A stretch of 64,000 nt of DNA from contig JAKOXL010000007.1 in assembly GCA_029781045.1 (NCBI GenBank), positions 62,001-126,000 on the forward strand. Direction: 5' to 3'. The translations under genes were made by a program, and so were the position numbers. This stretch comes from Bacillota bacterium. GTDB lineage: Bacteria > Bacillota > UBA994 > UBA5500. The notes below the pieces were generated by a model. That model was not told the origin of the DNA, did no database searches, and was given only the letters and a program-made list of their open reading frames with translations. This document shows positions 15,048 to 56,970 of the stretch, piece after piece (positions within the stretch are counted from its first letter, which is position 1; every line of letters begins with the position of its first letter).

Positions 15048-16313
15048 CTAATTCTTCTCTGGCATGCGTTCTATCTGGGCCCCCAGTGACACGAACTTCT
15101 GATCTAGGCGCTCATAGCCCCGATCCGCATGTTCGAAACCAGTGACCACACTGTCCCCTTCCGCCGCCATGGCAGCCATCAGTAGGGCGGCACTGGCTCG
15201 CAAATCGGTGCCATGGACTTCCGCTCCCGTCAGACGGGGCACTCCTTCAATAATGGCGGTGCGCCCGGCAATGCGCACTTGAGCTCCCATCTTTACCATC
15301 TGGTTAAGGTGCTCAAAACGCTCGTCCCAAATGGTCTCGGTAACCATGCTCATACCATCGGCTGTGGTAAGCAGAGCACTCATGGGTGCTTGGAAGTCGG
15401 TAAAAAAGCCTGGTAACGGCTGTGTCTTAACACTAACAGCCTTCACTCTCCTATCACAGCGAACACGAATCTTGTCATCACAGCACTCAATATCAACGCC
15501 CGCTTCCTGTAGTTTAGCTGTTATGGACTCCAAATGGTCAGGGATTGTGTTAACAAGGGTCACGTCTCCCCGCGTCATTGCCGCCGCCACCATCAAAGTG
15601 GCTGCCTCGCTCTGGTCGGGAATAATGGCATGCTCACAGCCATGAAGCTCAGAAACACCCTGCACTCGAATGGTTTCGGTGCCTGCACCGAAAACTCGGG
15701 CCCCCATGGCGTTCAAGAAGTTGGCCAAGTCGACAATGAAGGGCCCCCGATAAGCATTGGAGATTACTGTGGTGCCTTCAGCTAGTACAGCAGCCAGCAT
15801 CAGGTTGATGGTGGCACCAACCGTCAAAACATCTAAGTATATCGAGTGGTTTCCTTTAAGCCGATCGGCCTGGACCTTCACCAAACCATGCTCTATTATG
15901 GCTTCCGCCCCTAAGGACCTGAAGCCTTTTAAGTGCTGATCTATGGGACGCGGACCTAAATCGTCTCCGCCTGGCAAGGCGACTTCGGCCTTGCCAAAAC
16001 GGGCTAACAAGACACCCAACAGGTAGTAGGACGCACGCATGCGTTTGACTAACGTTTGATCCGCCACATGACTGTTTAAACCAGAGGGATCAATCCTCAT
16101 CCAACCCTGACGGTTATATTCAACCTTGGCCCCCAGTTGACGGAGAATATCGGCATAGACGGCCACGTCACTAATGTCGGGCAAGTTTTCAATGGTACTA
16201 GGAGAGTTGGCCAACAGGGCCGCCGGAATCACAGATAGAGCCACATATTTGGAACCACTGACAGCAACTTTGCCAGCCAAACGGGTCTGACCCTTTACAC
16301 GTAGTGCAGTCAT
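15048..16313 (-). CDS. murA: UDP-GlcNAc enolpyruvyl transferase (MurA) with Asp at the Cys site
   Basis: MurA transfers enolpyruvate from PEP to UDP-N-acetylglucosamine, the first committed step of peptidoglycan synthesis, in the cytoplasm. Its 421 residues have the two-domain EPSP-synthase-like fold. Lys22 is present (SGSKYVAL), as are the arginine regions KRMRAS and GPRPID, TDFQAPMSALL, and the late HADRGYERLD. Two active-site positions differ from the usual family: Asp117 occupies the place of the catalytic Cys (GGDDLG instead of GGCxxG), and Tyr23 replaces the usual Asn. Asp at the Cys site is known from naturally fosfomycin-resistant MurA enzymes. The start ATG has AAGGAG. It could be a second MurA paralogue. 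Confidence 0.88.
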   Translation of the reverse strand: MTALRVKGQTRLAGKVAVSGSKYVALSVIPAALLANSPSTIENLPDISDVAVYADILRQLGAKVEYNRQGWMRIDPSGLNSHVADQTLVKRMRASYYLLGVLLARFGKAEVALPGGDDLGPRPIDQHLKGFRSLGAEAIIEHGLVKVQADRLKGNHSIYLDVLTVGATINLMLAAVLAEGTTVISNAYRGPFIVDLANFLNAMGARVFGAGTETIRVQGVSELHGCEHAIIPDQSEAATLMVAAAMTRGDVTLVNTIPDHLESITAKLQEAGVDIECCDDKIRVRCDRRVKAVSVKTQPLPGFFTDFQAPMSALLTTADGMSMVTETIWDERFEHLNQMVKMGAQVRIAGRTAIIEGVPRLTGAEVHGTDLRASAALLMAAMAAEGDSVVTGFEHADRGYERLDQKFVSLGAQIERMPEKN

Positions 16314-16386
16314 GGCGCTCGCTCCTTAGAATGGTGTATACTTTTCTAATTATCCTTTACCAAAAGCTTAATGTCAACCAACCCCC

Positions 16387-16415
16387 TTGACGCAGGGCCT
16401 GTAGACGGCTATACT
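16387..16415 (+). promoter_or_regulatory. Sigma-A promoter of the riboswitch unit
   Basis: TTGACG (16387-16392), a 17-nt spacer and TATACT (16410-16415), a near-consensus promoter that starts transcription just before the aptamer. Confidence 0.8.
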
Positions 16416-16421
16416 GCACTT

Positions 16422-16513
16422 TGAAGGGGAGTAGCTATGGTATCTACCATGTTAAAGCCGTCAGTACGCGATTAGGCCGGCTTAACACAAGACTTTTGTT
16501 TTGCAGCAAGACC
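16422..16513 (+). promoter_or_regulatory. yybP-ykoY (manganese) riboswitch aptamer
   Basis: The leader contains GGGGAGTAGC at its 5' side, then CGTCAGTACG, CCGGCTTAAC, and GCAGCAAGACC at its 3' side. This matches the order and sequence I recall for the B. subtilis yybP aptamer (GGGGAGUAGC, CGUCAAUUCG, CGGCUUUG, AGCAAGACC). The class binds Mn2+ and turns on efflux or homeostasis genes. A near-consensus promoter lies directly upstream and a terminator overlaps the 3' end, so control is probably by transcription termination. Confidence 0.88.
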
Positions 16514-16541
16514 TTCGCCCAACATGGGGCGAGGGTTTTTT
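16512..16541 (+). terminator. Riboswitch-controlled intrinsic terminator
   Basis: CCTTCGCCC (16512-16520) pairs with GGGCGAGGG (16527-16535, one T-G wobble) and is followed by six T. Its 5' arm overlaps the closing strand of the aptamer, so ligand binding would prevent terminator formation. Confidence 0.82.
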
Positions 16542-16637
16542 GTTGTCGAAAAATACATATGATAACAGGGCTCTCGTCCATTCAATTGCGCACACTAAGT
16601 TAAGGTTGCAAGAATAATAAACAGGTGAGGTGCTCGT

Positions 16638-17906
16638 ATGCAGTTCAACCCAGCCCTCGTAGCAACAACTGTTTTCCTGCTTGCCTATTTCCTACTCATT
16701 ATCAAGGCCGCCCGCCCTATATACGTTACAACGGCGGCTGCCCTACTCTTGATCTTCACAGGAGCCATCACCGGTGAGCAGGCACTTGGAGCCATCAATT
16801 ATAACGTCTTGGGCATCGTAGGCGGCATGATGATCTTAGCCGAACTATTTGTCCGCTCCGAAGCTCCCGGATTCTTTGCCGGGCTGTTAGTTGGAAAAGT
16901 ACGTACAGCTACTGGGGTGTTGATAGTCATCAGCGCCTTTACTGGCATCGTATCAGCTTTCATCGATAACGTGGCCACTGTGCTTATAGTGGCACCCATT
17001 GCCTTTAGCATTGCCAAAAAGCTTAAGATCTCGCCAGTTCCCTTCCTTATTGGCATAGCCGTCTCTTCCAACCTTCAGGGCATGGCCACACTCATAGGTG
17101 ACGCTACCAGCGTTATTTTGGCCACTACAGCAGACTTGGACTTCCTAGACTTCTTCTGGTTGAAGGGCAAGCCGGGGATCTTTTTTGCCGTACAGTTGGG
17201 AGCCTCAGCCTCACTACTGGTGCTCTGGTTGCTGTTCCGCTCCTTGAACCGACCGGCCAATTATCGGGGAACTGGCTTGGTGGTGACCTGGGTACCAACT
17301 TTCCTGCTGGTTGCAGCCATACTAGCACTGGCCTTTAGTTCCCTCATTCCTAATCGCCCCGATTACCTGATAGCCGTTATCACCATTGCCTTTGGTATAC
17401 TTGGGCTACTGTGGAACGCCTTGCTAGGGCACTTGGAATTTGATTGGCGGGCACTAGACTGGGAAACGCTGGGCTTCCTTACGGGCGTCTTCATCTTGGT
17501 AGGAAGCCTTTCGGCCACCGGTGTCATCGAAACATTAGCCACTTATATTACCCAGTTAACCGGGGGCGATTTACTCATCACCTACTTGGTTCTGGTGTGG
17601 GCGTCGGTGCTGATATCGGCCTTTGTGGATAATATTCCCTATTCCTTAGCTATGTTACCTGTTGCCAAACAGATAGCCCTCACGATCGGATGCTCCCCAT
17701 ATCTGCTGATGTTTGGTCTGATGGTGGGAACCTCCCTCGGGGGCAACATCACTCCCATCGGCGCCTCCGCCAACGTGGTGGCCACGGGGCTGTTGCGCAA
17801 GCACGGATACGATGTTTCCTTCGCCGACTTTGTGAAAATAGGGCTGCCTTTTACTCTGGCAGCAGTACTTGCAGGTTCGGCCTTTATTTGGTTGGTTTGG
17901 GCCTAG
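16638..17906 (+). CDS. ArsB/NhaD/CitM-type ion transporter, predicted manganese-responsive
   Basis: A 422-aa integral membrane protein with about 11-12 helices and the two-fold repeat of the ion transporter superfamily. Each half contains a motif of the form AF(I/V)DN(V/I): SAFIDNVATVLIVAP near residue 110 and SAFVDNIPYSLAMLPV near residue 325. These are matched by glycine-rich loops SSNLQGMATLIGDATS and GTSLGGNITPIGASANV. Relatives move arsenite, Na+/H+ or citrate. The manganese-type riboswitch upstream argues instead for Mn2+ or another divalent cation efflux; that is inference from context. The ATG has GGTGAGGTG upstream, and the gene is monocistronic. Confidence 0.82.
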   Translation: MQFNPALVATTVFLLAYFLLIIKAARPIYVTTAAALLLIFTGAITGEQALGAINYNVLGIVGGMMILAELFVRSEAPGFFAGLLVGKVRTATGVLIVISAFTGIVSAFIDNVATVLIVAPIAFSIAKKLKISPVPFLIGIAVSSNLQGMATLIGDATSVILATTADLDFLDFFWLKGKPGIFFAVQLGASASLLVLWLLFRSLNRPANYRGTGLVVTWVPTFLLVAAILALAFSSLIPNRPDYLIAVITIAFGILGLLWNALLGHLEFDWRALDWETLGFLTGVFILVGSLSATGVIETLATYITQLTGGDLLITYLVLVWASVLISAFVDNIPYSLAMLPVAKQIALTIGCSPYLLMFGLMVGTSLGGNITPIGASANVVATGLLRKHGYDVSFADFVKIGLPFTLAAVLAGSAFIWLVWA

Positions 17907-25465: not shown

Positions 25466-26113
25466 TCACAACAGTAAGAGATTCACTAACCCCATTAACA
25501 GCAATAGTAGTCCCGGCAAACGGACAAGTTGGCCATTCATCTTCTCCTGGAAGCGATATCCCATCTCCCAGCCTATCACCAGCGAGAACAAGGTAATCAA
25601 ACCAACTATTACAGCGGTCAGCAGTGGGTCTAGACCGGTCATAGCAGCTCCAATCCCCACACCGAATGAATCGAGGGAAAGGGCCAATCCCAGCAGTACC
25701 GATTCCTGCCAAGTAATGGTGCCACTCTTATCCACATCTGCCAGAGTGGGATCCCGCAATATCTGTATTACCAATCCAAAGGCCTTGAGTCTAAGCTGGG
25801 CCAGTAGTTGCTGCGTCTTGTCCGATGGCAAAGATGCCTGGTTGGATCTTCCGGTTCTCTGGGGCTGATAAAGCATATAGCAGCCCAGGATTAGCAAAAC
25901 AAAGGTACCTAAATAGCGAGTTGCTACCGGGGGTAAGTAGCTACAGATGAGCTGTCCTAACCCCATGGCTAGCCAAAGCATCATAGCTGATGCCATACTC
26001 ACTAACAGTACGGCTAAGATCGCAAGGCGGATTCGGCGCGTCCCGTAGGCAAGGGCAGCCGCCAAACCATCGAGACTAACTATAAGTCCTAATATCACCA
26101 TCATCAAGAACAT
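25466..26113 (-). CDS. ytaF: Sporulation membrane protein YtaF
   Basis: An about 215-aa membrane protein with six helices in two halves, related to MntP cation exporters. Each half has a conserved SLDxLAxxxAYG or SLDSFGVGIGAAM motif. The central loop LRDPTLADVDKSGTITWQES looks like a calcium-binding EF-hand-like segment characteristic of YtaF. The protein is linked to sporulation in B. subtilis, but its exact job is not known. The ATG at 26113 has GAGAGGGGTGAG upstream. Confidence 0.88.
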   Translation of the reverse strand: MFLMMVILGLIVSLDGLAAALAYGTRRIRLAILAVLLVSMASAMMLWLAMGLGQLICSYLPPVATRYLGTFVLLILGCYMLYQPQRTGRSNQASLPSDKTQQLLAQLRLKAFGLVIQILRDPTLADVDKSGTITWQESVLLGLALSLDSFGVGIGAAMTGLDPLLTAVIVGLITLFSLVIGWEMGYRFQEKMNGQLVRLPGLLLLLMGLVNLLLL

Positions 26114-26171
26114 CGTCTCACCCCTCTCAAGCATCATATGAGGGGTGTAAAACAAAGGGTGCTCAACCCGC

Positions 26172-44566: not shown

Positions 44567-44572
44567 AGATGA

Positions 44573-44855
44573 CACAAGCCGAATCGAGCCAATGGCTCGA
44601 GCGGGGGATATATTTTGGGGTGAATCGGTCTTCTGGCCGTAGGGTCTGCCTTTCTTTCCCGAACCCGTCAACTAACCTCGTAGGCTTAGCGCAGAAAGGG
44701 TGGCACTGAGTTCTATTGCCAAACTGTCTTCTGTGGTTCAGCAGGTGCATCCAACTCCTGGTTGGACGCACCTGAGGGCCATAGAGCTGTTTGACATTTA
44801 ACTCGTGTTGCACCAGGCAGCTTTTCTTTCTCTTACTACCAAGTGTTTATTGCAA
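44573..44855 (+). ncRNA. Candidate unannotated RNA between promoter and terminator
   Basis: A 280-nt stretch bounded by a promoter and an intrinsic terminator with no credible frame. It contains a perfect 7-bp hairpin (TCGAGCC/GGCTCGA, 44584-44600) and a stem of about 13 bp with one mismatch (CAGGTGC...GCACCTG, 44742-44774). A string AGGGTGGCACTGAG (about 44697-44710) resembles the T-box core AGGGTGGNACCGCG at 11 of the 13 fixed positions, but the rest of a T-box leader and a synthetase gene are missing. I found no match to 6S, tmRNA, SRP or RNase P RNA signatures. Confidence 0.4.
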
Positions 44856-56824: not shown

Positions 56825-56852
56825 AGGCATGGAGAAGACAATAACATAAGCT

Positions 56853-56939
56853 AGGGGAGCTGGAATTGGCCAGCTGAGATTGTATCCCGTAAAGATACTG
56901 ACCCTCATACCTGATCTGGGTAATGCCAGCGTAGGGAAC
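56853..56939 (+). promoter_or_regulatory. TPP riboswitch (THI element)
   Basis: The leader has AGGGGAGC, GCTGAGAT, ACCTGATCTGGGTAAT and GCCAGCGTAGGGAA, the conserved order of the thiamine-pyrophosphate aptamer. An intrinsic terminator follows, so thiamine pyrophosphate is expected to stop transcription of the transport genes. Confidence 0.95.
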
Positions 56940-56970
56940 GAGTTATATTTGCCTATTGGCCTGTTCACGG

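Follow-up and report, generated by a model that had tools for sequence, protein, structure and literature searches.

A manganese-type riboswitch in front of an ArsB/DASS-fold permease in Bacillota: a candidate sixth family of Mn2+ exporters

Introduction

With reference to the published accounts (cited here and below from excerpts), five families of bacterial Mn exporters, MntP, CDF, P-type ATPase, UPF0016 and TerC, are listed in a review (PMC9334652), and the same five are named in a 2026 paper (PMC13274385); none of them belongs to the ion-transporter (IT) superfamily. The known Mn exporters of the GDT1 (UPF0016), TerC and P-type ATPase families are encoded behind the same kind of RNA as the one described in this study, the yybP-ykoY aptamer (Rfam RF00080, a model of 177 positions). 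An invariant adenosine in L3 of this RNA contacts Mn2+ (PMC6754395), and the architecture of an ON switch that acts on transcription in response to Mn2+ has been described for the Lactococcus riboswitch (PMC11087558, PMC9190785). Within the IT superfamily, the arsenite carrier ArsB holds As(OH)3 at N111 and N337 and couples to H+ through D112 and D148 (PMC13381914), while the SNT (Ser-Asn-Thr) motifs of the DASS carriers bind Na+ and the substrate carboxylate (PMC9098524). Our literature search of such excerpts returned no paper that ties the present permease type to Mn or to a riboswitch; an earlier listing in the founding 2015 Mn2+ riboswitch papers is possible.

In this study, a locus on contig JAKOXL010000007.1 of a Bacillota bacterium was investigated, together with its relatives in other genomes. 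The window is the whole stretch of 64,000 nucleotides that was analysed, and all positions refer to it.

The locus and its aptamer

A preliminary description had proposed that a promoter, a yybP-ykoY aptamer and an overlapping terminator stand in front of a permease gene at 16387-17906, and all of these parts are present, as follows.

16387-16415, + strand: sigma-70-like promoter, TTGACG-17 nt-TATACT, 10 of 12 consensus matches
16422-16518, + strand: yybP-ykoY (Mn2+) riboswitch aptamer, found by covariance model R1 at 50.6 bits, E 2.1e-12
16423-16427 paired with 16512-16516, + strand: helix P1 of the aptamer
16427-16434, + strand: conserved aptamer loop (L1), GGGAGTAG
16508-16545, + strand: intrinsic terminator (16508-16539 plus T tail), 13 pairs, with a 5' arm that includes the P1 3' strand
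16623-16630, + strand: Shine-Dalgarno-like AGGTGAGG, by direct reading of the sequence
16638-17906, + strand: permease gene with ArsB/DASS fold, candidate Mn2+ exporter, 422 aa (ORF call, Pfam CitMHS)
15048-16313, - strand: murA-type gene, divergent from the permease (Pfam and NCBIfam)
16377-16349, - strand: promoter-like site of the murA-type gene

The aptamer starts 7 nt from the end of the promoter. A murA-like ORF diverges from the permease at loci L007 and L012 as well, so the locus is syntenic there, with the aptamer not always kept. Two further riboswitches in the window exceed their Rfam cut-offs, a c-di-AMP (ydaO/yuaA) riboswitch at 44567-44701 (+) and a TPP riboswitch at 56843-56955 (+).

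The aptamer class named in the preliminary description is recovered by one of the two covariance models applied. The Rfam search that the description had proposed as a check gave no support, and its refuting condition, the lack of a covariance-model match, thus holds for the Rfam model but not for the better model R1. RF00080 gave no match in the window at its gathering score of 45 bits, nothing on 16300-16700 up to E 10, and no match across the source genome; the weak matches of other Rfam models on 16300-16700 (PyrR, a lncRNA) were dismissed as chance. Rfam also returned nothing on 20 relatives of the permease locus, the R1-positive L005, L068 and L069 among them. When RF00080 was run on 149 genomes of the phylum, 56 had a match at E <= 1 and only five passed the cut-off; the miss of the window aptamer is therefore ascribed to the insensitivity of the Rfam model in this phylum. 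Model R1 was built from 25 aptamers found by RF00080, none of which came from the window or its orthologues, by aligning them and adding P1 to the RNAalifold structure; these 25 were drawn from 30 RF00080 loci, with L021, L029, L030, L038 and L041 left out. The match of R1 to 16422-16518 (110,616 bases searched) is its sole site in the 2.0 Mb source genome, and a single second match in the window, at 12 bits, was taken as chance. Across the phylum, R1 sites at E <= 0.001 occur in 171 of 299 genomes against 5 of 149 for RF00080, and although the draws and thresholds of the two surveys differ, the public Rfam Mn model misses many sites of the phylum.

To describe what R1 represents, the ORFs downstream of the RF00080-found aptamers were scanned (29 for the 30 loci, as L038 gave no ORF). 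GDT1 was encoded by 10 of the 29, TerC by seven, a Na/Ca exchanger by five and a P-type ATPase by three, the remaining four being other genes or miscalled ORFs. R1 thus describes RNAs that lie mostly before cation exporter families, and three of these families (GDT1, TerC, P-type ATPase) are reviewed as Mn exporters. None of the 29 ORFs is a CitMHS protein, and the gene behind the window aptamer is thereby unlike the partners at these 29 other yybP-ykoY sites. The Na/Ca-exchanger matches, assigned by eye to L023, L025, L036, L040 and L041, represent a partner outside the usual exporter list. It was also observed that the yybP-ykoY aptamers of the phylum can be sorted into subtypes by their L3 region (GTCGTCA, ATCGACAT, GTCAACATACTGG) and by GCAAGACC or GCGAGACC, as exemplified by L013, L016 and L027 versus L026 and L039; from their sequences, these subtypes may differ in ligand affinity.

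The window aptamer shares with RF00080 the P1 and P3 helices, the GGGAGUAG loop and a UCA loop with its invariant A, but scores below the Rfam threshold. In the UCA loop, A16463 is the counterpart of the invariant Mn2+-contacting A of L3; this adenosine is unchanged across 22 aligned aptamers of permease loci, in which C41 and A42 are invariant. In an alignment of 24 permease-locus aptamers (23 of them distinct), which includes the second aptamer of L104, standing before a P-type ATPase, and is to that extent not purely permease-linked, the named helices were paired in 92.2% of cells versus 62.1% in shuffles, and double-changed cells numbered 129 versus 40.0. The covariation score was 0.783 against 0.207 in shuffles and at most 0.205 when the partner was slid by 1-3 columns, in an alignment fitted to the model, which favours a positive result.

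Folding of 16490-16545, the terminator region, gave a z of -4.75. At each of the 23 sites scanned, the next hairpin has a 5' arm that starts in the final 14 nt of the aptamer and hence contains the P1 3' strand, and most of the sites carry a T-run after it (L006 is weak, and L104 is weak with a short hairpin). Since the terminator 5' arm includes the P1 3' strand, aptamer and terminator are mutually exclusive, and this P1-competing expression platform is arranged, at all 23 sites, as in an ON switch by which Mn2+ controls transcription. By analogy with the RNA class, Mn2+ is the likely ligand of the window aptamer; the ON direction, established for the class, would apply here by the same analogy.

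A different divalent metal (Fe2+, Co2+, Ni2+ or Cd2+) might be sensed by this branch of yybP-ykoY RNAs and exported by the permease, as some yybP RNAs have probably changed specificity (PMC7266159), and two Omnitrophota-like relatives that lack the aptamer adjoin an RND-type efflux gene (L067, by Pfam ACR_tran; L075, by eye). We consider this reading improbable, because the L1 and L3 residues, the Mn2+-contacting A included, are conserved in the window and in the permease-linked set, and because the exporters found next to the permease (see below) come from families reviewed as Mn exporters.

Distribution of the aptamer-permease pairing

The permease was found in 12 of 15 genomes of the class, with the aptamer directly upstream in nine of the 12. 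The three orthologues without it are L002, where a run of N lies upstream, L003, with 190 nt of upstream sequence, and L004, with 1.5 kb and none detected; among orthologues whose upstream region is complete, the nearest is that of genome G001, and no aptamer was detectable there. Beyond the class, the relatives from named genomes were sampled as the best 80 of 552. R1 gave 17 matches in 16 of these 80 loci, all on the strand of the gene, and the aptamer lies directly upstream of the permease in 13 of the 80, one of the 13 being a duplicate, or in 12 of 78 when two duplicates are removed. At L087 and L104 the aptamer stands before a Na/Pi cotransporter-like gene that itself precedes the permease, and a match about 1.6 kb upstream of the permease at L124 was left out of the count.

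At the level of the phylum, a close member of the permease family (at least 367 bits) occurs in 29 of 299 genomes, 10 of them with the aptamer upstream, nine from the class and one (G152) from another family. No aptamer was detectable in the other 19, nor in most of the best 80 of 552 relatives, nor alongside 34 lower-scoring relatives, which were judged by eye among the R1 matches listed and, for L190, by a scan. With approximately one R1 site per genome, we estimate that chance would place almost none before 29 given genes. In a tree of 90 permeases, the label of a direct aptamer requires 10 changes versus 19.2 in shuffles by a quick method, and at least six changes are forced by well-supported branches. 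This tree omits L057 and L092, which are on the same contigs as G003 and G008, scores L002, L003, L076, L100 and L125 as no data, and treats L087 and L104 separately as operon cases. We read these sequence patterns as a link that several lineages probably retained or acquired and that others lost. That the aptamer and the permease are linked in regulation is close to certain.

The permease and its neighbouring genes

The preliminary description placed the transporter in the IT superfamily, and this assignment is borne out by a Pfam CitMHS match (PF03600, E 5.4e-54, 184 bits against a cut-off of 31.9) together with an inverted-repeat, ArsB/DASS-like fold. CitMHS and DctM are the only Pfam matches of the window permease, with none to MntP, GDT1, TerC, CDF or P-type ATPase, and it falls below every NCBIfam cut-off, the nearest models being MamN, DASS and ArsB, all of which are matched by 48 of 48 sampled family members. 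No relative was found on viral contigs. Among solved structures, ArsB (10tp) is the one most similar in fold to an AlphaFold2 model of the permease (pLDDT 87.5, pTM 0.85), with TM 0.84, Z 44.3 and an rmsd of 2.5 across 407 aligned residues; SLC13/DASS carriers come next.

Residues N111 and N332 of the permease align with N111 and N337 of ArsB, at roughly 17-19% identity, but the H+-coupling D112 of ArsB is V112 here; this, with 44 bits versus 457 in NCBIfam, led us to reject the permease as an ArsB arsenite exporter. With the DASS/SLC13 carriers (VcINDY, NaCT) it shares the fold and the inverted repeats, but their SNT motifs are replaced by (D/E)NV and DN(I/V) in the permease family, and the identity of a DASS Na+/anion symporter was rejected on these motifs (DNV and DNI in the window protein) and on a score of 74 bits versus a cut-off of 198.6. 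MamN is the best NCBIfam match, at 86.9 bits, and was rejected as an identity since the equivalog cut-off is 500 bits. MamN-like permeases are probably akin to OCA2.

In a very unlikely reading, the permease moves no Mn2+ and works as an antiporter of H+ or Na+ that brings pH or ion balance back to normal during Mn or alkaline stress. In E. coli, a connection between the mntP riboswitch and alkalinisation in Mn stress has been described (PMC9603457), and NhaD is weakly matched by 36 of the 48 sampled members and MamN by all 48; yet every one of these matches lies below its cut-off, MamN at 87 of 500 bits, and the repeated co-location of the permease with Mn exporters speaks against this reading.

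The two AF(I/V)DN motifs pointed out in the preliminary description are present at residues 107-111 and 328-332. The conserved residues of the permease are D110/N111, N145, Q147, D155, D331/N332, N370, T372, S377 and N379, and of these N111, N145, D155, D331, N332, N370, T372, S377 and N379 are invariant in 90 members. Position 110 is D in 67 and E in 23, a restriction to be read with the fact that this position lay in the seed search pattern matched by all 90 proteins, while D155, D331 and N332 lie outside the pattern. By profile alignment, D110 and D331 stand where the two VcINDY SNT motifs have Ser, and D155 aligns with VcINDY residue 200 (residue numbers taken by hand from the alignment). 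Because the motifs sit where DASS carriers have their SNT motifs, the earlier suggestion of a cation site is plausible, and a divalent cation could plausibly be held between two or three carboxylates. As a Mn signature, on the other hand, the acidic residues were rejected: the MamN-like L190 (31% identity to the permease, with G in place of Q147) has the same residues at 110, 155 and 331 and no aptamer, and position 110 was selected by the pattern. The acidic residues are thus compatible, more broadly, with the handling of cations or protons.

The E. coli protein YbiR is an uncharacterised IT-superfamily permease whose gene (NC_000913.3 853647-854765; L137:1648-2766) overlaps mntR by 4 nt, which may hint, as an independent sign, that the IT superfamily touches Mn homeostasis. 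It was rejected as an orthologue of the window permease, since identity is 22% over 124 residues only and the three acidic residues are absent.

Several permease loci adjoin other exporter genes. A one-repeat GDT1 gene lies 26 nt upstream of the permease at L062 (Elusimicrobia), and a P-type cation ATPase gene adjoins it at L101 (Omnitrophota) and L104 (Clostridia), at the latter behind its own second aptamer; a second aptamer stands before GDT1 in four genomes of the class. The source genome itself also encodes a full-length MntP homologue (G000:C42) and a one-repeat GDT1 gene, both without R1 sites. Given the MntP homologue, this genome need not rely on the permease alone for export, and from the gene content the permease would be one of several candidate exporters there. 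A YtaF sporulation membrane protein, of the Pfam Mntp family, is encoded in the window at 25466-26155 (-), about 8 kb from the permease.

Na/Pi cotransporter-PhoU genes were noticed near the permease in five loci of the best 80 of 552 relatives. At L087:1214-2974 and L104:1195-2940 such a gene (by Pfam) has a Mn-type aptamer directly before it and the permease after it, and genes related to it lie upstream of the permease at L072, L106 and L109. They suggest either that phosphate is connected with Mn stress or that one more transporter is under Mn control.

Discussion

The main rival to Mn2+ export keeps the RNA as a true Mn2+ switch but gives the permease an anion as its substrate, such as phosphate, citrate or some other oxyanion by which Mn2+ is chelated or accompanied. 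The permease would then ease Mn stress indirectly or export a metal-anion complex. IT-superfamily carriers of known function transport mostly anions or neutral As(OH)3, which counts against Mn2+ export, and the kinship of the permease to this superfamily (Pfam CitMHS/DASS) agrees with an anion substrate. The Na/Pi cotransporter-PhoU neighbours in five of the 80 loci, with the aptamer before the Na/Pi gene at L087 and L104, keep this explanation alive. We nevertheless regard it as unlikely: the Ser of both DASS SNT motifs is Asp/Glu in the permease, the counterpart of VcINDY position 200 is acidic too, the DASS score reaches 74 bits where the cut-off is 199, and the other neighbours are the cation exporters GDT1 and P-type ATPase.

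Our preferred reading, to which we give a probability of about 0.6, is that the permease is a Mn2+-induced exporter outside the five families listed in the reviews, with a Mn2+-responsive ON switch in front of its gene. Without Mn2+, the nascent RNA would fold the terminator at 16508-16545 and transcription would stop. Mn2+ bound at the L1/L3 site would hold P1 together and so keep the P1 3' strand out of the terminator, allowing transcription of the permease gene. The permease would then act as an elevator-type IT-superfamily carrier that lowers cytosolic Mn2+, most likely by exporting it in exchange for H+ or Na+, and its candidate site would lie between the two hairpin tips, formed by D/E110, D155 and D331 with several Asn, Gln, Ser and Thr residues. 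The aptamer, the overlap of its P1 with the terminator, the recurrence of the pairing and the fold are observations of this study, whereas the substrate, the direction and the coupling ion of the permease are what we infer from them.

Of the exporter prediction made in the preliminary description (Mn2+ or another divalent cation), the recurrent link and the ON-switch layout thus stand, and export itself is a prediction from sequence. Against Mn2+ export it must be weighed that no aptamer is detectable in most relatives, that the acidic residues are common to L190 and that the Na/Pi genes hint at phosphate.

Extended to the family, at odds a little better than even, these permeases would constitute a sixth family of Mn2+ exporters: IT-superfamily antiporters of ArsB fold whose three-carboxylate cation site has arisen from the carboxylate/Na+ site of DASS carriers. 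Mn2+ riboswitches would induce them in several lineages within Clostridia and related Bacillota, a few of their loci, among them those of Elusimicrobia and Omnitrophota, have GDT1 or P-type ATPase genes alongside, and the family would have been missed because the Rfam model overlooks these aptamers.

If this is true, an anion-carrier fold has been converted to a divalent-cation carrier, and permeases now known only as 'citrate transporter' or as ArsB/DASS-like would gain a substrate hypothesis. A riboswitch-linked sixth family would, likewise if true, help to account for the ability of many Clostridia of the gut and rumen to tolerate Mn.
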